From Bacteroidales bacterium (GTDB lineage Bacteria; Bacteroidota; Bacteroidia; Bacteroidales; VadinHA17): a DNA stretch of 41,002 nt. Made by a program: the position numbers and the translations under genes. The notes under the pieces were generated by a model. The model was not told where the DNA came from. It did no database searches and worked only from the letters and a program-made list of their open reading frames with translations. The DNA is taken from the NCBI GenBank assembly GCA_017882305.1, contig JADGPU010000020.1, positions 1 through 41,002 of the forward strand, in the 5' to 3' direction. Shown here piece after piece: positions 4,639 through 36,296 of this stretch (position 1 is the first letter of the stretch; each line of letters starts with the position of its first letter).

Positions 4639-5754
4639 ATGAAACATATTCTTACAATCTTACTATTTGTAATTAGCAGCCTGACATTTTCACAGGTGTC
4701 TGAAAATGTAAAACCCAATGATGGAAATAAACTGCCAGTTCGTGGTTTCTGTATTGCCGCTCCACAATCAAAAGACCTTGATGCTTTCATAAAGTTTGTT
4801 GATGAGGAACTTGCTCCCCGGTCTGTGAATACCCTTATCCTGAGAGTGGATTATAATTATCAGTATGAAAGTCATCCCGAGTTGCGTGATTCAGCAGCCC
4901 TTTCAAAAATGGAAATTAAAAAGCTGGTTGAGGTATGCAAAAAGAATAAAATAAATATTGTACCTCAGATTGACCTTCTTGGTCACCAGTCGTGGGCAGG
5001 CAAAACAGGAAATTTATTAAAGGTTTATCCGCAGTTTGATGAGACACCATTGGTGAAGATGCCTGAAAAATATGTGTGGCCAAATGCCGACGGACTATAT
5101 TGCAAGAGTTATTGCCCTCTGAACCCTGATGTACATGGTATTGTGTTTGACCTTATTGATGAGATTTGTGATGTGTTTGAAGCTGTGGCATTCCATGCAG
5201 GGATGGATGAAGTCTTCTATATCGGGGAAGCACAATGTCCCCGTTGTTCCGGAAGGGATAAAGCAGAATTGTTTGCCGGAGAAGTTCGTACTATACGAGA
5301 TCATCTGGCATTGAAAGGTCGTAAGCTGTGGATATGGGGTGACAGATTGCTCGATGGTAAAACAACAGGACTAGGAGAATGGGAGGCAAGCTATAATAAT
5401 ACCTTCAGGGCTGTTGATATGATTCCGAAAGACGTGATAATATGTGACTGGCATTATGAACGGCCGGATCAGACCCCGGTTTATTTTGCAATGAAGGGAT
5501 TGAGTGTTATTACCTGCCCCTGGAGGAACCCGGCTAATGCTGTTCTTCAGGCACAGGATATGGTCAGGTTCAGAAACTGTTCCACACCCGAAATGAAAGA
5601 TCGTTATTTGGGCATGGTACAAACAATCTGGTCAGGCGCCGGTCAATTCCTCGACAATTATTATGGCGTGAAAGCGGAAAATCCGGAGAATTCTCAGGTA
5701 AATTGCTTCAAAGCATTATTTTCAGAAATTCAGAAAATCTCAAAATCGCAATAA
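4639..5754 (+). CDS. GH20-like glycoside hydrolase (putative exported beta-N-acetylhexosaminidase)
   Basis: 371 aa with a signal peptide (residues 1-19, ending TFSQ). The rest looks like a single TIM barrel. The GH20 signature HxGxDE is present as HAGMDE at 186-191, with the Asp190-Glu191 pair being the substrate-assisted catalytic pair in that family. The upstream strand IVPQIDLLGHQSW and the downstream tryptophans (LWIWGD, ICDWHY, TIWSGAG) also fit GH20-like barrels. It is shorter than classical hexosaminidases and lacks the usual N-terminal alpha/beta domain, so substrate specificity is uncertain. No polysaccharide-utilisation genes flank it. A periplasmic role in glycan turnover is an inference. 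Confidence 0.75.
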   Translation: MKHILTILLFVISSLTFSQVSENVKPNDGNKLPVRGFCIAAPQSKDLDAFIKFVDEELAPRSVNTLILRVDYNYQYESHPELRDSAALSKMEIKKLVEVCKKNKINIVPQIDLLGHQSWAGKTGNLLKVYPQFDETPLVKMPEKYVWPNADGLYCKSYCPLNPDVHGIVFDLIDEICDVFEAVAFHAGMDEVFYIGEAQCPRCSGRDKAELFAGEVRTIRDHLALKGRKLWIWGDRLLDGKTTGLGEWEASYNNTFRAVDMIPKDVIICDWHYERPDQTPVYFAMKGLSVITCPWRNPANAVLQAQDMVRFRNCSTPEMKDRYLGMVQTIWSGAGQFLDNYYGVKAENPENSQVNCFKALFSEIQKISKSQ

Positions 5755-5771
5755 CAGGTTCTTAAAAGAAT

Positions 5772-5850
5772 GACGCACGATTCACGACTCACGATGCAGA
5801 GAAATCCAATTTTTTTCTTTCCTGCGTCGTGTGCCTTGAGTCGTGTGTCC
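5772..5850. repeat. imperfect inverted-repeat element (CACGA-type) between convergent genes
   Basis: Arms 5772-5799 and 5822-5850 are complementary at 22 of 28 positions, several of the rest being G-T wobbles. The element contains repeated CACGA-type words (GATTCACGACTCACGA on the left arm). The loop is AT-rich and the right arm is followed by TTTTT. It fills almost the whole 101-nt gap between convergent genes, so it may act as a bidirectional terminator, but its repetitive word structure suggests a dispersed intergenic repeat. Confidence 0.6.
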
Positions 5851-5855
5851 TTTTT

Positions 5856-6737
5856 CTACTTATAAGTCTTTGTCATCGAAGACGGTATGACAATCACAAA
5901 ATCAGCCAGTCCCTTGTTTTCATCACTTATTTTTTCAATATCGTCCTGAAGAACAGTAGAGAGTGTTATAGATTTTATTGAAGGGTTATATTTATTCAGG
6001 TACCATATAATTCCCATATGCCTGTCGGAATGATAACTGCCATTGTAGTGAATCAGAATCTGACCTTTCTGCCAGTTATTTACGATCGATTTTGCCATAG
6101 TTGCATCCTTTATAGCCTGAGCTTTAGGGAGGTTTTCACTTACCTTTCCACCCATCTGACCACCTATTGAACTGCCCATTGAAAGCATCTCTTTATAACA
6201 GGCAAGTTCCTGATCATATTCAATCGGCATAGGTACAATATATTTAAGCTCTTCGGGGTTGATATTCTGAAGGGCCTCAAACCCTCCCGAAGCTACAACT
6301 GCAGCATATCGGCGCGGGATATTTGAAGCGACAAATTTTAACCCGTTTTCCTTCGCAAAATTCAAAAGCGGCTTATAATCAGTTGAATAATTTTTCCATA
6401 AACGTACTTCGGTCTCAAAAGAACTTTCCTTAATTATTCCTGCAAAATATTCATCAATAAGTATTTGATTATCTGTCTCAAACATTTCAGCTGACAGGAT
6501 AAGATCTTTACCTCTGGCAGCAAAGAGACTTTTTGTTATTTCCAGCTCCAGCCAATGTGCAATCGGGTTATCGTGAAGCTCACCAAAAAAAACAACATCT
6601 GACTTAGTCGCGGCTTTCAGAATATCCTCATAGTCAGCTTTTTTACCTTCTCCGGTAAATATTTTATAAGCTGGTTTATCCTGTGAAAATGCCTGTAGTT
6701 GCATAACTAGTATGAAAAGAATTGCGGATAATTTCAT
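5856..6737 (-). CDS. ChaN family (DUF399-like) exported protein
   Basis: 293 aa with a signal peptide (residues 1-18, ending AFSQ) and no lipobox Cys, unlike the lipoprotein ChaN of Campylobacter. The conserved block FFGELHDNPIAHWLELEI (about 51-68) and later SAEMFETDNQ and HYNGSYHSDRHMGIIWYL are characteristic of the ChaN/EreA-like fold. ChaN from Campylobacter binds haem and is iron-regulated; by analogy this could be a periplasmic haem or iron protein, but no iron-uptake genes are nearby. It converges on the GH20-like gene across an inverted repeat. Family call firm, function inferred. Confidence 0.8.
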   Translation of the reverse strand: MKLSAILFILVMQLQAFSQDKPAYKIFTGEGKKADYEDILKAATKSDVVFFGELHDNPIAHWLELEITKSLFAARGKDLILSAEMFETDNQILIDEYFAGIIKESSFETEVRLWKNYSTDYKPLLNFAKENGLKFVASNIPRRYAAVVASGGFEALQNINPEELKYIVPMPIEYDQELACYKEMLSMGSSIGGQMGGKVSENLPKAQAIKDATMAKSIVNNWQKGQILIHYNGSYHSDRHMGIIWYLNKYNPSIKSITLSTVLQDDIEKISDENKGLADFVIVIPSSMTKTYK

Positions 6738-9651: not shown

Positions 9652-10146
9652 CTATCCGTAAAGTTGGATAAATTCAAATGTATTGCCCGTGTATTCCAGA
9701 AACTTCAAAAAATCAGATTTCGAAATTACCAATGAAGAAGTGTTTATATTCGGATGAAAAGTAAGCCTGTCAAATTCATTCAATTTCTCATCTATAAACA
9801 GGTGGACGTGTTTTTCAGAGTCATTGATAAGTCCGAATGGTGAAACAGAACCAGGTTCAACACCAAGATATCTTTTTAGTCGCTTATCTGAAGCAAATGT
9901 AAGTTTCCCCTGCTTTAACCGTTTTTCAAGATCCCTGATATCCAGTTGTCTAAGGTGTTCGAGGATAACTAAATAGTGTCGGTTTCCTTTATGATTCCGA
10001 AAGAAAATATTCTTGCATCTTCCTGAATTATAGTTTTCCCAATGAATTTTAGCATCCTCTATAGTCGCAAGCGGAGGATGTTCATGGTACTCATAGTGAA
10101 TTGCCAGTTTCTCGAAGAGGTTATAAAGTTCCTGTTGTCCCCTCAT
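9652..10146 (-). CDS. YbaK/ProXp-type aminoacyl-tRNA deacylase (prolyl-tRNA synthetase-associated domain)
   Basis: 164 aa, a single domain of the YbaK/ProX fold. Recognisable blocks are EHPPLATIEDAKIHW near the N-terminus, CKNIFFRNHKGNRHYLVIL (about 44-62), a central FASDKRLKRYLGVEPGSVSPFGL and the C-terminal HPNINTSSLVISKSDFLKFL. These match free-standing ProXp-ala/PrdX proteins that hydrolyse mischarged Ala-tRNAPro in the cytoplasm. No tRNA synthetase is adjacent. The start codon overlaps the stop of the upstream SiaC-like gene as ATGA (10146-10143), so the two are translationally coupled. Its exact tRNA specificity cannot be told from sequence. Confidence 0.8.
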   Translation of the reverse strand: MRGQQELYNLFEKLAIHYEYHEHPPLATIEDAKIHWENYNSGRCKNIFFRNHKGNRHYLVILEHLRQLDIRDLEKRLKQGKLTFASDKRLKRYLGVEPGSVSPFGLINDSEKHVHLFIDEKLNEFDRLTFHPNINTSSLVISKSDFLKFLEYTGNTFEFIQLYG

Positions 10147-10568
10147 CCTTTATTACTTTTCTTTGGGATAAATGTAAATTCCATCTCAACGAGTAAGGCA
10201 ATATCTGATCCGGCTTCTTTCAGGTCAATATCTTCTTTATCATAAAACCACTCAACACTAAAAGGTATCCCGGCCGGAATAAGTCTCTTCAACTCCAAAA
10301 AGATGTCGTATAGAAATTTAGCTGATGATGAATTGAAATATATTAAGTCGGTCTTGAAGATTAAAGGGGATTCTAAAGTATAACTCTTATTCTTAACCTC
10401 CAGAATTTCATCAACATACATTTTAACCCACTCAATAACAGGGTAATACATTGCACGAACATCTTCGGGGGAAGATACTCCACGGATAAGAAAGATATTT
10501 TCCAGCGGTGAAAAGTTGACCTCAGGAGTTGTACTGGTCGGACTAATATAAAGTTTTTGCATCTGCAT
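10143..10568 (-). CDS. DUF1987 / SiaC-like regulatory phosphoprotein
   Basis: 141 aa, cytoplasmic, no signal. MQKLYISPTSTTPEVNFSP and then MYYPVIEWVKMYVDE fit DUF1987, the family of Pseudomonas SiaC. SiaC is phosphorylated by kinase SiaB and dephosphorylated by the SpoIIE/PP2C phosphatase SiaA, and its phospho-state controls a diguanylate cyclase. The segment LIYFNSSSAKFL (75-86) aligns by eye with the SiaC phosphosite region LNTSS, so Ser80 would replace the Thr. No SiaB-like kinase is visible nearby, but a SpoIIE-type phosphatase is encoded about 23 kb away in this window. Met3 is an alternative start. Overlaps the deacylase gene by 4 nt. Confidence 0.75.
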   Translation of the reverse strand: MQMQKLYISPTSTTPEVNFSPLENIFLIRGVSSPEDVRAMYYPVIEWVKMYVDEILEVKNKSYTLESPLIFKTDLIYFNSSSAKFLYDIFLELKRLIPAGIPFSVEWFYDKEDIDLKEAGSDIALLVEMEFTFIPKKSNKG

Positions 10569-14870: not shown

Positions 14871-15371
14871 ATGATTAAGGGAACTAAGGTTTTACTGATA
14901 CTATTACTATTTTCCCCGACAAACGGTTTTGCCCAGCAATTGTCGCACCAGGTATTAGTTCCGGCTGCCGGATTAGCGACTGCAGGAGTATTAAGTTATT
15001 CACAAACTATCGGGGAGACAGCAGTTGAATTATTCGGTAATGGAGGATTTGAATTAACGCAGGGATTTCAGCAACCAGCCATTAAGTTTACGACGGGTAT
15101 CCCACCAGAAGGTAACGGAGTTGATGTCTACCCGAATCCTGTAACAGATTTTATTAATGTTAAATTATATGGGGATGTAGCCCGAAAATTAAGGATTGAG
15201 ATAATTAATATTACCGGGATGATAGTTAATTCAATGACAATGAGTTTTGTTTCCAAGTACTATTATATACAGCAGATTGAAGCTAGCAACCTTAAATACG
15301 GTCTTTATTTCGTCAGGGTAACAAGTGATGATGGAACAATTAACAGGGTATTTAAAATAGAGAAAATGTAA
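14871..15371 (+). CDS. T9SS-exported protein with type A C-terminal sorting domain
   Basis: 166 aa. Signal peptide 1-22 (ends GFAQ), then a short Gly/Thr/Gln-rich module (SYSQTIGETAVELFG, FELTQGFQQP) seen in many Bacteroidota surface proteins. The C-terminal ~80 residues start with VDVYPNPVTDFINVKL and end YGLYFVRVTSDDGTINRVF. This is the type A sorting domain recognised by the type IX secretion machinery, which usually leaves the cargo attached to the cell surface. No enzymatic domain is present, so a structural or binding role is likely. The next gene begins 11 nt after the stop, so the two share a transcript. Confidence 0.88.
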   Translation: MIKGTKVLLILLLFSPTNGFAQQLSHQVLVPAAGLATAGVLSYSQTIGETAVELFGNGGFELTQGFQQPAIKFTTGIPPEGNGVDVYPNPVTDFINVKLYGDVARKLRIEIINITGMIVNSMTMSFVSKYYYIQQIEASNLKYGLYFVRVTSDDGTINRVFKIEKM

Positions 15372-30652: not shown

Positions 30653-30683
30653 TTGATAATTAGAAGAAATATTTCTAATTTTG
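30653..30683 (+). promoter_or_regulatory. promoter of the caspase/SpoIIE operon (TTG N20 TAATTTTG)
   Basis: TTG at 30653-30655 and TAATTTTG at 30676-30683 are separated by exactly 20 nt, fitting the Bacteroidota -33/-7 consensus. The predicted start of transcription is about 30 nt before the ATG at 30721. It lies between ribD and the caspase gene, so the pair is an independent transcription unit. Confidence 0.7.
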
Positions 30684-30720: not shown

Positions 30721-33078
30721 ATGAAGAAGCGAGTATTTTTAATGGCAACCATCGTGACCCTGATGGCAGTATGTGCTTTTGGGCAAAGTGCCAGGAAGTA
30801 TTACAAAGCAGGGGTAGAGTTTGTTGACAATCTTAAATATGATGACGCTATCGCTCAGTTTACAAGCGCCATTGGTCTCGAACCTTCAAATCCTGATTAT
30901 TATTATGCCAGAGGGCAGGCTTATGAAAAACTATCAAAATATACTGAAGCTAAGGCCGATTTCGAAAAGTCATTGGTTTTTGCACCGAAAGATGTTGATG
31001 CAATGATCAGCCTTGGCGCTGTTTGTAACAAGCTAGGCAACTATGAAGAGTCTCTGAAACTTCTTAACCACGCATCAACCCTCGATAAGCGAAACTCAAA
31101 GGTATATCCTGAAAAGGTTATCACACTGACTAACCTTAAAAAGTATGACCAGGCGCTTCAGGCATCAGATACTGCAATTATTATTAAGGATACTCCTATG
31201 GATTATTATTGGCGTGGGATTATTTACAGAAGGCTCAATAACGATGTCCTTGGGAAAAAAGAGTTGGAGAAATCAATATCAAAAGACAAAAAACTTGCTG
31301 AACCAAGAATTGAGCTTGCTGACCTGCTCATTTCCACTAATCCAAAGGAAGCAATGGAACAGTGCAATGAGGTGATTAAAAACAACAACCGGAATACAGC
31401 AGCTTATATCCAGAGAAGCAGGGTATATAAGAAAAACCTGGATTATCCGAGTGCCATTAATGATATTTCCAAAACAATCCTGATCGATCCGGCCAACCCG
31501 AAATTTTATTTTGAACGGGGTAAATGTTACCAGGAATTCAATCAGCATACTAATGCAATAAATGATTTTTCAAAAACAATTTCGCTTAATACTGCACTAA
31601 AGGCCGAAGATCCTGAAGTTTATTATGCACGTGCCAAGTCTTATGAAGAAATTTCGGACTATGATAAAGCCAGGGCTGACTACAATCAGATCACTTTTCT
31701 CTCTAAATATGATGCGAAGGCACGCGAAATGCTGGAACTTTCTCAAAAAAGGCTTTATGAAATAAACAGGGAAAAAGACCCTCCTGAGATAGCTGTAATA
31801 AGTCCTGCACCTGCAAAAGATACAGTAGAAATCAAAGGAGACAAAACAACTCTTCTTATATCAGGGTCGCTTAAAGATAAAAGCAAGATTAAGTCCTTTA
31901 CTATTAATAATGAGAATGTTATATTAGTTGAAAAAAACGGTGAATCTGATTTTCTCGCAAACATCAATGTTGCCGGTATTGATAAACTTACTTTTTCAGC
32001 CAGTGATGATTATAATAATGAGAAAGTCCTGAATTATGCTATAAAACGTACAGAGATTAACCCACCAAAAGTAATGATTATTGCACCTTATACTTCTGAA
32101 GAAGGACAGGTTTTTCTCGATTCCCCGACACCTAATATTGCAATTCAGGGTAAAATTTCAGATGAAAGCAAGATTAAATCGATCACTGTAGGCAATTTTA
32201 CCGCAAGCTATAATCCAAATGAATTAAATCCTGCATTTACAGCGACATTAGATGTTTCAAATTTAAATAAGTTTACCGTAGTTGCTGAAGATATTTATGG
32301 GAACAGGCAGGAAACCGAATTTGTACTTAACAGGGAAGGTGCAGGAATTGCCGCAAGTAATCCAATGGGCAGAACCTGGGTAGTATTTATTGAAAATTCG
32401 AGTTATGAAACTTTTGCGAGTCTTGATGGCCCTATAAAAGACATCAGTACTATGCGGAGAGCTCTGGCTAATTATCAGATAAATAACATTATTCCTAAAA
32501 AAGATATGACCAAGGCAGAGATGGAGAGATTCTTTAACATCGAGCTCCGCGACCAGGTAAAGAAAAACCAGGTTAAATCCTTGATGATCTACTATGCAGG
32601 TCATGGCAAATATATTAATGATGTCGGTTACTGGATCCCGGTTGATGCAAAGCGCGACGACGAGTTTACTTATTTTAATATTAATTCGTTAAAAGCCGGA
32701 TTGCAGGGTTACAGCGATGTAGTTGTTCACACTCTGGTGGTATCTGATGCCTGCGAATCAGGCCCTGGTTTTTATTCTGCATCACGTGCAGCGAGTGAGG
32801 CTCCGACCTGTGATAATACCCAGGTGGCAGGTGCAAAATCAGCACAGGTTTTCTCCTCGGCAGGTGAAGCGTATGAGCTTGCCTCCGATAATTCAAAGTT
32901 TGCGGCAACATTTGCCAATACCCTTATGAACAACAAAAATGCCTGTATTCCAATTGAGACTATCGTTAAATCGGTTACATCTGTTGTTGCTTCAGATAAC
33001 AAAGGTCAGAAGCCTAAATTTGGTAAAATACAGGGGTTGGACGACAGTAACGGAACATTCTTCTTTATTACGAAATAG
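30721..33078 (+). CDS. exported TPR/Ig-like protein with C-terminal caspase (C14-like) domain
   Basis: 785 aa. Signal peptide 1-21 (ends CAFGQ). Residues 23-345 are tetratricopeptide repeats (for example YDDAIAQFTSAIGLEPSNP and YTEAKADFEKSLVFAP, about eight or nine units). Residues 355-540 hold two beta-sandwich-like modules (PPEIAVISPAPAKD and PPKVMIIAPYTSEEG, each with an SDESKIKSITV-like stretch). Residues 550-785 form a caspase-hemoglobinase domain with the His-Cys dyad intact: His628 in YYAGHGK and Cys678 in SDACESG. It is therefore likely an active cysteine protease acting beyond the inner membrane, with TPRs for protein binding. The next gene starts 8 nt later. Substrates are unknown. 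Confidence 0.88.
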   Translation: MKKRVFLMATIVTLMAVCAFGQSARKYYKAGVEFVDNLKYDDAIAQFTSAIGLEPSNPDYYYARGQAYEKLSKYTEAKADFEKSLVFAPKDVDAMISLGAVCNKLGNYEESLKLLNHASTLDKRNSKVYPEKVITLTNLKKYDQALQASDTAIIIKDTPMDYYWRGIIYRRLNNDVLGKKELEKSISKDKKLAEPRIELADLLISTNPKEAMEQCNEVIKNNNRNTAAYIQRSRVYKKNLDYPSAINDISKTILIDPANPKFYFERGKCYQEFNQHTNAINDFSKTISLNTALKAEDPEVYYARAKSYEEISDYDKARADYNQITFLSKYDAKAREMLELSQKRLYEINREKDPPEIAVISPAPAKDTVEIKGDKTTLLISGSLKDKSKIKSFTINNENVILVEKNGESDFLANINVAGIDKLTFSASDDYNNEKVLNYAIKRTEINPPKVMIIAPYTSEEGQVFLDSPTPNIAIQGKISDESKIKSITVGNFTASYNPNELNPAFTATLDVSNLNKFTVVAEDIYGNRQETEFVLNREGAGIAASNPMGRTWVVFIENSSYETFASLDGPIKDISTMRRALANYQINNIIPKKDMTKAEMERFFNIELRDQVKKNQVKSLMIYYAGHGKYINDVGYWIPVDAKRDDEFTYFNINSLKAGLQGYSDVVVHTLVVSDACESGPGFYSASRAASEAPTCDNTQVAGAKSAQVFSSAGEAYELASDNSKFAATFANTLMNNKNACIPIETIVKSVTSVVASDNKGQKPKFGKIQGLDDSNGTFFFITK

Positions 33079-33086
33079 GTTCTTAT

Positions 33087-36000
33087 ATGTCAGCCATTAA
33101 CTTGATAAAACACCAGGCGAAATTTTTTGCCTGGTTTGTTCTTTTTTTGCATTTTACAATCTTGTCGGGTCAGACTCAAAAATATTTTTTTGATAATTAC
33201 AGCAATAAGCAGGGGCTCAGTGAACAAAAAGTTTATAAACTTCTCCAGGATTCAAAAGATTATATATGGCTTGGAACAGCAAACGGCCTTTCGCGTTTTG
33301 ACGGGAAGAATTTTAGAAATTTCACAACGCACGACAACCTTGCATCCGGTGGAGTAACATCAATAATCGAAGATTCATTGGGATATATCTGGTTCGGTCA
33401 TCGTAGTGGCGGAGGAATTTCCATTTACAACGGAAATAAATTTGAACAGATAGCCTTCGACTCATTAAAGATTACAGGCGATATAACAAGTATTGTACAG
33501 ATCAAAGATAAAATCTGGTTTACTTCTACTTCGGACGGGGCAATTCAGGCTGATTTTCCCGTAAACGACATTAAACATATTAAAGCGAAGCAGTTCAAGG
33601 GAAAAGAAGGTCTGAGCGACCAAATTTACGGATCAAAATTACAAAGGGATGGATCATTTATCTGTATAGCAGACGTAGGACTGAGAAAATACAGACCCTC
33701 GGAGAATAAATTCGAAAACTATCGTATGCCTCATCTGACAACCTATTTTAATACCACATGCTTGCTTGATGATAAAAAAGGAAATATATGGTTTGGAACA
33801 GACCATGGAGGTATATATAAATATATTATGTCTGAAAGCAGGATGGTTTATTATGATCTTATCAGATATGGGATTTCAAGTAATACAATAAGTTGTTTTT
33901 ATGAGGATAGCCGGGGTCGGATTTGGGCGGGCACATGGGGAGGGGGAATAGCACTTTTTGACGGAGATAAAGTCAGTAAGTTTGATAGTGGAAACGGACT
34001 GAAAGCAACAAATATTTATGATATCATTGAAGATATTGAGGGCAATATTCTTATAGCAGACCAGAGCAATGGGCTCACTATTTTTAAGGGTGATGCTTTT
34101 GAAACTATCAATGAAAAAGATATACTTCCCGATCCGAATGTAAACGCCATATTTCAGGATTTGACTGGAGCATTGTGGTTCGGTACAAATGCAGGGATAT
34201 CGCGTTATTATCCGGGAACGGGTAAAAAACCTTTCGTTTTTAATCAGTCTGTTAATTCTATTCCCGAAAATATACGGTTCTTCAGGGAGGACAGAGATGG
34301 AAATCTGTGGATCGGAGCGAACGAAGGTGGAGTTATCCTTTACAATACGAAGGCTTCAAAGTTTGAAGCACAGCCATACATAAACTCATATATCAACTCA
34401 AATCTTAACGTGAGCGGGCAGGTGAAGGCTATGGAGATAGATAAGCAGAATAACCTTTGGGTTGGAACCTTAAACGGACTCGTAGTAGGCACTATTAATG
34501 AGCAGAATTTCCAGAAGTATAATTTCATGGACAGCCTGATTATCAAGTCAATTACGGCTCTTTATTGCGATCAGAATGGAAATATTTGGATCGGTACCGA
34601 GAGTATGGGAGGAGAGAAGAAGCCCGGTCTTATAAAGTATAATTCTTCTAAAAAGGATTTTAAGAGGGTCCCGGCTCTATCGGGGATAATACCCAAGACA
34701 ATGGTTATGGATGCCAAAGGTGTTCTTTGGATTGGAACTAGTGAGGGGTTAAAAGCATTCAGAAATGATTCCATTGTTATGAGTATCACACAGAATGACG
34801 GACTTCTTTCAAATATCATCAACTTGCTCGCAACAGGAGAAGATGGGAGTATTTATATCGGCACAAATAATGGGCTTAACAGGTATTTCCCTGAAACCAA
34901 AAGGATTTTTTCCTACACAGAAAGAAACGGATTTACGGGGATTGAGACAAAACCAAATGCAGTATTTAAAAGCCCTTATGGTGATCTGTGGTTTGGTACG
35001 GCGAATGGTGCAACACGACTTATGCCTTCTGAAATATCGACCAGGAGCCTTGAGCCTCTCACTCATCTGCTGAACATGCAGGTAAATTATGAACCGCATG
35101 AAATGACCCCTGGCTTAAAGTTAAATTATAATGAGAAATCTGTTCTATTCGATTATTACAGCATTTGTCTCACAAATCCGGATGTTGTAAGATATAAAGT
35201 GAAACTTGAAGGGGCGGACTTTGACTGGCAGCCTGTTACAGATCAGACCCGGGCTATCTATTCAGCTCTGCCCCCGGGCAAATACACTTTCAATGTAATA
35301 GCAAGTAATAGTCAGGGACTCTGGAACAGTAAACCTGTTTCTTTTCATTTTGTAATAAAGCCTCCGTTTTATCTTACCTGGTGGTTCATCTTCCTCTCTG
35401 TTGTCTTAATAATCGTAATTGTTGTAATGTATATTAAAGTCAGGGAACAAAACCTGATAAAAGAGAAGACAATTCTCGAAGTAAAGGTCAAAGAAAGAAC
35501 CGCCGAGGTTGTTCAGAAAAGCATAGAAATCGAAGAGAAAAACAGAGATATAACAGCAAGTATCAGATATGCAGAACGTATACAGAGGGCAATGCTTCCA
35601 AAGGAAGATACCTTTAAGGAAACGTTCGTACTTTTCTTGCCAAAAGATATAGTGAGTGGTGATTTTTACTGGATGTATGATAATGGCGACTTGCAGTTCA
35701 TAGCTGTTGTTGATTGTACCGGTCATGGAGTTCCGGGAGCATTTATGTCAATAATTGGCCATAATTCTCTGAATAAAGTAGTACGCGAATATGGATACAC
35801 GCGCCCCTCTGCAATTGTCGACCAGCTCAATAATGAGGTAATGAAGGCTCTTATGCAACGTCATGAAAAAGCAATAACCGATGGGATGGATCTTGCCCTG
35901 ATAGCTTTCAACAAGAAGAATTTTACGCTTGAATTCGCCGGAGCATTTAATCCATTGTATGTTGTCAGAAAAGGAGAAGTATTTCTTTATAGAGGTGACA

Positions 36001-36296
36001 GATATCAGATTGGTATGGCATCACTGGTTGAGAGGAAAAACTTTACCAATCAGATTGTGGATATTCAACCGGGAGATATGCTATATATGTGTTCCGACGG
36101 TTATGCCGATCAGTTTGGATCTGCTGCCGTTAAGAAATATAAGTCGGCGAATGTTAAAAAACTACTGTCGGAGATATGGAATCTTCCTGTGAATGAGCAA
36201 AAAGAGAGACTGGAAAAAGAGATACTGGAGTGGAAAGGTGATCTTGAACAGGTGGATGATATACTGTTTGTTGGTACAAAAATCCCTGAGAATTAG
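33087..36296 (+). CDS. transmembrane beta-propeller sensor with cytoplasmic SpoIIE/PP2C phosphatase
   Basis: 1069 aa. Signal peptide about 1-29. Residues 30-665 hold about 13 two-component-regulator propeller blades (IWLGTANGLSRFDG, IWFGTDHGGIYKY, IWAGTWGGGIALF, LWIGTSEGLKAF and others), probably two seven-bladed propellers, then a Y_Y_Y-type module ending PPGKYTFNVIASNSQG. A single membrane helix at about 762-783 follows, then a coiled coil (EVKVKERTAEVVQKSIEIEE). Residues ~831-1066 are a SpoIIE-type phosphatase with the metal Asp motifs SGDFYW, DCTGHGVPGA, DGMD and CSDGYADQFG. It likely senses an extracytoplasmic signal and dephosphorylates a cytoplasmic protein. Its stop overlaps that of the convergent LOG gene. 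Confidence 0.92.
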   Translation: MSAINLIKHQAKFFAWFVLFLHFTILSGQTQKYFFDNYSNKQGLSEQKVYKLLQDSKDYIWLGTANGLSRFDGKNFRNFTTHDNLASGGVTSIIEDSLGYIWFGHRSGGGISIYNGNKFEQIAFDSLKITGDITSIVQIKDKIWFTSTSDGAIQADFPVNDIKHIKAKQFKGKEGLSDQIYGSKLQRDGSFICIADVGLRKYRPSENKFENYRMPHLTTYFNTTCLLDDKKGNIWFGTDHGGIYKYIMSESRMVYYDLIRYGISSNTISCFYEDSRGRIWAGTWGGGIALFDGDKVSKFDSGNGLKATNIYDIIEDIEGNILIADQSNGLTIFKGDAFETINEKDILPDPNVNAIFQDLTGALWFGTNAGISRYYPGTGKKPFVFNQSVNSIPENIRFFREDRDGNLWIGANEGGVILYNTKASKFEAQPYINSYINSNLNVSGQVKAMEIDKQNNLWVGTLNGLVVGTINEQNFQKYNFMDSLIIKSITALYCDQNGNIWIGTESMGGEKKPGLIKYNSSKKDFKRVPALSGIIPKTMVMDAKGVLWIGTSEGLKAFRNDSIVMSITQNDGLLSNIINLLATGEDGSIYIGTNNGLNRYFPETKRIFSYTERNGFTGIETKPNAVFKSPYGDLWFGTANGATRLMPSEISTRSLEPLTHLLNMQVNYEPHEMTPGLKLNYNEKSVLFDYYSICLTNPDVVRYKVKLEGADFDWQPVTDQTRAIYSALPPGKYTFNVIASNSQGLWNSKPVSFHFVIKPPFYLTWWFIFLSVVLIIVIVVMYIKVREQNLIKEKTILEVKVKERTAEVVQKSIEIEEKNRDITASIRYAERIQRAMLPKEDTFKETFVLFLPKDIVSGDFYWMYDNGDLQFIAVVDCTGHGVPGAFMSIIGHNSLNKVVREYGYTRPSAIVDQLNNEVMKALMQRHEKAITDGMDLALIAFNKKNFTLEFAGAFNPLYVVRKGEVFLYRGDRYQIGMASLVERKNFTNQIVDIQPGDMLYMCSDGYADQFGSAAVKKYKSANVKKLLSEIWNLPVNEQKERLEKEILEWKGDLEQVDDILFVGTKIPEN

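Follow-up and report, generated by a model that had tools for sequence, protein, structure and literature searches.

Prokaryotic caspase homologues, the orthocaspases and metacaspases, carry a C14 peptidase domain with a His-Cys dyad, and their fusion to tetratricopeptide repeats (TPR) is already known. According to the main text of a 2012 survey, TPR_1 occurs in 47 of 671 such homologues and their operon partners include sigma factors and others; SpoIIE, PP2C, phosphatase and propeller do not appear in that main text, figures and supplements aside (PMC3501461). The roles of bacterial caspase homologues have mostly been discussed around cell death and defence. In Bacteroides, hybrid two-component systems (HTCS; BT4663 and others) combine a periplasmic double propeller with a Y_Y_Y domain and a membrane helix, and in the type IX attachment complex the double-propeller protein PorZ was shown experimentally to bind the sortase PorU (PMC8545088). 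In the SiaA/SiaB/SiaC(/SiaD) system of Pseudomonas aeruginosa, phosphorylation of SiaC at Thr68 is balanced by SiaA and SiaB (PMC7647112). Herein, we describe two adjacent genes at positions 30721–36296 of a 41,002-nucleotide stretch of DNA from a Bacteroidales bacterium (contig JADGPU010000020.1 of assembly GCA_017882305.1; the whole stretch is hereafter called the window), which encode a predicted exported caspase-family protease (P0001) and a predicted transmembrane propeller sensor with a PP2C phosphatase (P0002).

Comparison across genomes lends a joint function of the two genes good support, and the pair points to an undescribed envelope signalling unit, predicted from genes that are inherited together. 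The initial annotation of this DNA knew of no described system with such a pairing, and no description of a caspase/propeller-phosphatase pair was found in the open-licence literature. Our preferred reading, to which we assign a probability of about 0.45, is that the two genes form one envelope signalling module, in which the protease would condition the sensor or its ligand and the PP2C domain would act on a SiaC-type phosphoprotein.

Architecture of the two products

Gene 1 (30721..33078, plus strand; open reading frame (ORF), Pfam and ortholog alignment) encodes the 785 residues of P0001. Its signal peptide (residues 1–21, 30721..30783) has its cut point between ...AFG and Q, and Gln22 is invariant in 13 aligned orthologues, an end that agrees with the Bacteroidetes rule by which signal peptidase I exposes a glutamine (PMC5837995). 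There follow a TPR superhelix (residues 24–348, 30790..31764), identified by Pfam, by high pLDDT in an AlphaFold2 model and by Foldseek matches to TPR structures, and two Ig-like beta domains (residues 355–540, 31783..32340), assigned from the strand pattern of the model and lacking a Pfam match. The caspase domain (residues 552–766, 32374..33018) matches Peptidase_C14 (PF00656) at 1.3e-16, with 61.5 bits against a curated cut-off of 21.4, and contains the catalytic dyad His628 and Cys678, the latter within DACESG, likewise invariant across the 13 orthologues. By motif check, both residues are found in 76 of 80 wider homologues and in 2 more with a variant motif, and in the remaining 2 the ORF ends ahead of the cysteine. 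The TPR and Ig-like parts are modelled with confidence and the caspase part poorly; as this domain model is too poor for fold comparison, kinship rests on sequence, the caspase profile matching metacaspases (7e-12) and MALT1 (3.5e-8) in the PDB. The exported TPR-Ig-caspase protein with an intact dyad, as first annotated, is upheld by these results. The DACESG motif presumably fits the S1 acid of metacaspases and orthocaspases. Orthocaspases are described as cleaving after basic residues (PMC6426788).

Gene 2 (33087..36296; ORF, Pfam, alignment and model) begins 8 nt downstream, also on the plus strand, which confirms the two large, closely spaced genes of the initial annotation. The 1069-residue product consists of a double beta-propeller ectodomain (residues 31–660, 33177..35066), a Y_Y_Y domain (residues 697–758, 35175..35360), a membrane helix at about residues 765–790 (35379..35456), placed by eye from hydrophobicity, and a cytoplasmic PP2C domain (residues 841–1066, 35607..36284). 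Pfam detects Reg_prop (1.7e-47), Y_Y_Y and SpoIIE/PP2C (7.2e-16) and finds no histidine kinase, receiver or helix-turn-helix domain in P0002; the predicted structure shows two propellers, Y_Y_Y, a single long helix (765–797) and a PP2C fold. By Foldseek, the ectodomain model resembles the periplasmic domain of the heparin-sensing HTCS BT4663 (4a2m, E 2.3e-46, TMt ~0.8). P0002 shares its propeller, Y_Y_Y and helix arrangement with the HTCS, and differs from them in carrying PP2C in place of the histidine kinase and response regulator. The ectodomain also matches PorZ, both by Foldseek (5m11, 3.8e-22) and in NCBIfam (NF052228, 1.2e-28), although the 100 bits of the latter miss the cut-off of 260 bits and the C-terminus is PP2C instead of a sorting domain.

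The initial annotation had named gene 2 a propeller-sensor SpoIIE phosphatase. The architecture and the metal-binding aspartates stand, D859, D876, D935, D1004 and D1058 being invariant in 12 orthologues; the family name does not, since the domain is, on profile scores, closer to SiaA than to SpoIIE proper. The SiaA model NF038263 reaches 1e-54 and 186 bits over residues 796–1063 only, missing its full-length cut-off of 700 bits, and SpoIIE proper (TIGR02865) reaches 3.8e-4 and 18.6 bits against an equivalog cut-off of 490.8 bits. In addition, Foldseek aligns the phosphatase with the SiaA structure 6k4e (E 1.1e-17, 31% identity).

Ahead of gene 1 lies a Bacteroidota-type promoter-like site, TTG-N20-TAATTTTG (30653..30683, plus strand), which had been annotated as a promoter shared by both genes. 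The site is present, and for its shared use the evidence is comparative: a TAnnTTTG core occurs upstream in 74 of 78 orthologues (mean of 13.5 in dinucleotide shuffles) and the two-part motif with an 18–22 nt spacer in 38 of 78 upstream regions (1.9 in shuffles), counts that are taken over related sequences and hence are not independent. The same core is found at the caspase-sensor gene junction in only 9 of 79 cases. Being common upstream and rare at the junction, the motif gives comparative support to a shared transcript, and genes 1 and 2 are likely one operon.

Conservation of the pair and a second pair type

Conservation was assessed in 60 relatives, the genus being represented by 36 genomes (own genome included). 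The TPR caspase is present in 26 of these 36 and the sensor in all of those 26, at an identity of at least 47%; the other 10 have neither gene, showing only sensor paralogues of ~30% or no match at 1e-100. Adjacency is direct in 25 of the 26 genomes, and in G018 the caspase contig stops right after the gene. The pair was also recovered in two other families at 41–45% identity (G042 and G049). Furthermore, a scan of a genome collection of 84,980 species yielded 214 relatives. Among the best 80, all of them metagenome-assembled records, the next downstream gene is the sensor in 77 of 77 loci where one exists (66 full sensors, and 11 propeller-only owing to contig ends or frame breaks), and 3 caspases sit at a contig edge. 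The gap between the two genes has a median of 9 nt (quartiles 6 and 15). Adjacency of this type, hereafter type A, spans 41–88% identity and many families of the order. Restriction to the own genome or close strains, named at the outset as the finding that would speak against a joint system, is not what was seen.

Several loci depart from the standard layout. A short exported caspase (258–270 aa) precedes the TPR caspase in L148, L151, L155 and L159, the sensor then following in three and the contig ending in L159. In L249 (7937–8728), a short TPR-less caspase of 263 aa stands directly before the sensor, and in G467 a TPR-less caspase with a 266-aa frame is paired with one. In L149, L150 and L318 the sensor is split by a frame break beside an intact caspase, through decay or assembly error.

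A second pair type, type B, has 24–33% identity to type A and keeps caspase and sensor with a different caspase N-terminus. It occurs in six genus genomes at another locus, with a caspase of ~608 aa where complete (contig-cut in L101 and L103), and its phosphatases are ~30% identical to those of type A. By Pfam, the type B caspase of L097 carries CARDB and no TPR, that of L237 has WD40 and that of L194 an unassigned region. No type B, short or exception caspase examined lacks the His or the Cys, and the paired proteins, the TPR-less forms in L249 and G467 among them, share only the caspase domain. Held over such a range of identity in many families and again in the diverged type B, the pair bears out the joint system originally proposed. 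In one case, L218, a Fic/BRO-N gene (5497–6378, minus strand) sits between the type B caspase and the sensor.

The order-wide search covered 295 genomes, with caspase profile matches in 83 and 150 matches listed. Joining the coordinates of these 150 listed caspases with those of 108 of the 150 listed sensors gave 36 same-strand pairs with the caspase upstream (26 type A, 2 short and 8 type B), among them a contig-cut type A pair in G478 and two type B pairs with one gene between. By chance, 0.09 would be expected (two sensors per 3500 genes) or, conservatively, 1.0 (10 PP2C genes per 2900, two places); the gene densities are round figures from the own genome and the scored matches and the genomes are related, so that binomial values are indicative only. 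Co-occurrence, which the initial annotation had proposed to compare with chance, lies above it. Among 60 neighbourhoods of the ~118 listed matches not of the TPR type, the sensor is next in 7, one gene further in 2 and missing in 51, a few of which are contig-cut. In the phylum-wide search, caspases of this profile were found in 25 of 395 genomes, and in the 20 neighbourhoods fetched for 44 listed matches no sensor lies within two genes of the caspase, L258 having a PP2C gene further off. L253 had been labelled a pair by script owing to a propeller; Pfam identifies a protein with a type IX secretion system (T9SS) tail and a propeller, and the label was discarded as false. In the same class, L250 (G181:C96:329500-349000) holds a tandem array of nine caspase ORFs in ~19 kb, two of them cut by the ends.

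The surroundings of the type A pair are less fixed than the pair itself, with ribD upstream in 64 of 75 loci and LOG downstream in 51 of 62. Synteny nevertheless extends to the entire neighbourhood (prmC, ribD, LOG and thioredoxin) at most type A loci, which could mean that two unrelated genes merely stay adjacent through vertical inheritance of the region. Such neutral hitch-hiking is very improbable and was rejected, because the synteny covers type A within the genus and leaves aside type B, altered flanks and non-adjacent co-occurrence: the pair is intact in L148, L150 and L151, where both flanks are changed; type B pairs reside at other loci; adjacency is far above chance; and the partners are kept together in genomes where they are not adjacent (G464 and G466, see below).

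A defence response was among the functions initially suggested. In a defence or programmed-death system the caspase would be the killing agent, set off by the sensor, and caspase-like peptidases do serve as effectors in bacterial conflict systems (PMC7159879, PMC8195603). The housekeeping flanks, with the locus usually lying between the ribD and LOG genes, do not fit such a role, nor does the export of the protease. The vWA, MoxR and STAND partners of caspase conflict systems (VMAP, CATRA) are missing among the 27 other window ORFs scanned with Pfam, and the PADLOC caspase match is marginal at 18.6 bits. The suggestion was dropped as having scarcely any likelihood. Elsewhere in the window, a C1q-domain protein follows a short protein that bears a type IX secretion tail (14871–15371, plus strand).

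Trees, distance correlation and a second partner class

In a caspase tree of 118 rows, with type A thinned, type A forms a clade of 28 that includes five short caspases. The type B clade numbers 25, of which 11 are paired directly and 3 have the sensor one ORF further on; the 65 caspases outside both clades are all unpaired after correction of L253. In a 52-row sensor tree, the 18 type A and the 14 type B rows each form one group, and 15 PorP/SprF-linked rows stand together with three unlabelled ones; the PorP label, which mostly denotes similarity to two PorP/SprF proteins and not a Pfam match, takes 4 changes because 5 rows are unlabelled. When 11 loci of exceptions and outgroups were added (47 rows), A takes 2 changes and B takes 3, because the unlinked sensors of exception genomes fall inside A and B. 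A 35-row tree separates A, B and PorP in 100% of bootstraps, values for groups named after seeing a tree, since unlinked sensors were put in A or B by the earlier 47-row placement; two unpaired sensors sit on the stem of sensor clade B. With p 0.61 on 38 rows, an approximately unbiased test does not reject that A and B caspases form one clade, and a single origin of the pairing is neither shown nor excluded.

Across those 45 of the 80 loci in which all four genes are complete, caspase and sensor distances have a correlation of 0.90, and the partial correlation after removing prmC and ribD is 0.63, a value reached by 0 of 2000 permutations. The four cross pairs, treated by the same method, range from -0.03 to 0.30.

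Paralogues of the propeller phosphatase end sets of PorP/SprF, PKD/PD40 and ~330 aa genes (L286–L301, L304 and L322–L324; for example L295:4399-11054). This context holds for 15 of the 20 loci L285–L304 and for three of L305–L324, and the sets are a second envelope partner class for the sensor family. They resemble the caspase pair in sensor architecture and in that the sensor gene is preceded, on the same strand, by genes for envelope partners, and differ in that the partner is PorP/SprF with a PKD/PD40 protein and not a protease. Because such paralogues occur in the same genomes and the ectodomain matches PorZ, which itself binds PorU (PMC8545088), the pair could resemble the type IX attachment complex, as a unit in which a clan-CD protease and a PorZ-like propeller together process and monitor surface cargo and the phosphatase reports its state. 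That explanation appears quite unlikely: HTCS ectodomains match better than PorZ, P0001 has no T9SS tail by Pfam, and C14 is distinct from family C25, that of the gingipains and PorU. PorU acts at the outer surface; here a C14 protease accompanies a membrane-anchored sensor with a phosphatase.

Candidate output and proposed relay

The genome offers a plausible output pathway, with 10 PP2C/SpoIIE, 12 SiaC, 3 DUF6272, 2 STAS and 2 HATPase_c_2 matches over cut-off. DUF6272, which we take to be the SiaB family, is represented only on contigs other than that of the pair, one match lying directly beside a SiaC gene (C16). Given a SiaA-like PP2C together with 12 SiaC, 3 DUF6272 and only 2 STAS matches, a SiaC-family protein is the likeliest substrate of the phosphatase. 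The locus thus recalls the SiaA/SiaB/SiaC(/SiaD) system in its SiaA-like PP2C with metal aspartates and in a genome with many SiaC and some SiaB-type genes, and departs from it in the HTCS/PorZ-like ectodomain and protease partner of P0002, in having no siaB/siaC operon and in scoring below the SiaA equivalog cut-off. In the window, a SiaC-family gene is located at 10143–10568 on the minus strand, between tRNA-editing-domain and RNase H genes.

Under the preferred reading of one envelope signalling module, the product of gene 1 would be an exported, probably periplasmic, C14 protease whose N-terminal part (TPR-Ig here; CARDB-type, WD40 or none elsewhere) may act as an interchangeable input or targeting module. 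The exported C14 domain is constant among the pairs and the part preceding it variable or absent, and for this reason the caspase domain is read as the step tied to the sensor, common to protease and receptor. The product of gene 2 would be an inner-membrane sensor with its HTCS/PorZ-like double-propeller ectodomain as the receiver. The protease could condition this ectodomain by cutting it, by releasing a ligand or by forming a protease-propeller complex like that of PorU and PorZ, whose binding provides a precedent for such contact in the phylum. A cut in the sensor or its ligand is the route that the initial annotation had put forward as gating the phosphatase. A signal passing across the one helix would then switch the SiaA-type PP2C, which would dephosphorylate a cytoplasmic SiaC-family (less likely STAS) phosphoprotein and so change its binding partner. 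That the protease acts ahead of the sensor, and what kind of ligand is involved, we infer. A narrower version is speculative and rather unlikely: here an exported caspase with interchangeable sensing modules would act across the inner membrane on a partner-switch phosphatase, switching it by limited proteolysis of the propeller ectodomain.

Several observations weigh against a single module. No SiaC or SiaB gene adjoins the pair, the nearest SiaC gene being 20 kb off on the other strand. The juxtamembrane ectodomain has no Lys/Arg column at 85% or more that would mark a cut site, and the only Lys/Arg position of the ectodomain without variation among the 71 type A sensors compared, K334, sits in a propeller; nothing useful emerged when the ectodomain was searched for basic cleavage sites specific to one clade. 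In the caspase tree, the remaining 11 members of the type B clade are unpaired within two genes downstream. For the control neighbours prmC and ribD the partial correlation is 0.52, not far below the pair's 0.63, which shows that adjacency alone can yield such a signal and leaves the distance test as only moderate support for the pairing. In the order search, 26 of 32 type A caspases adjoin a sensor and 6 do not, the class of caspases with no fetched sequence being judged by frame length and by where the profile match starts. Finally, G551 (98% complete) and G653 (80%) keep a type A caspase without a type A sensor, their best sensor matches being 32% or partial, so that the caspase can evidently serve without it.

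The other exceptions are of several kinds. G464 and G466 (the latter with two copies) carry the caspase and a type A sensor (42–44%) on separate contigs, each with other neighbours, and in G471 the sensor adjoins a short TPR-less caspase, with the long caspase elsewhere. Type-B-like sensors without an adjoining caspase occur in G476, G595 and G687, which have clade B caspases elsewhere in the genome; in G595 and G687 both caspase and sensor are close kin of the linked L237 pair. G518 has a clade B caspase near that of L237, but neither of the two sensor matches scored there is a close type B sensor.

These exceptions bear on the explanation that the phosphatase pathway controls the operon and the caspase is its downstream effector, acting on envelope or surface proteins and not on the sensor. 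Sensors are often encoded together with their regulon, one promoter-like site appears to serve both genes here, and in G551 and G653 the caspase persists though the type A sensor is missing, all of which speaks for such a co-regulated output. Retention of the caspase domain while the part preceding it changes or is missing fits it less well, as does the keeping of both partners in G466 and G464 though they are not adjacent, and we regard it as unlikely.

Altogether, the locus belongs to a large conserved set of exported caspases that have a signalling receptor as genomic partner, and the natural series of module swaps (TPR-Ig, CARDB, WD40 or none) singles out the caspase domain as what the paired proteins have in common. 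In Bacteroidales-type bacteria the sensors make up a family of SiaA-type phosphatases that branches according to its envelope partner, either caspase or PorP/SprF. A signalling role for extracytoplasmic caspases and the inputs of SiaC-type partner switches in these bacteria are now directly testable. If true, the caspase-gated phosphatase would be a bacterial envelope relay in which a caspase is used for signalling and not for killing.

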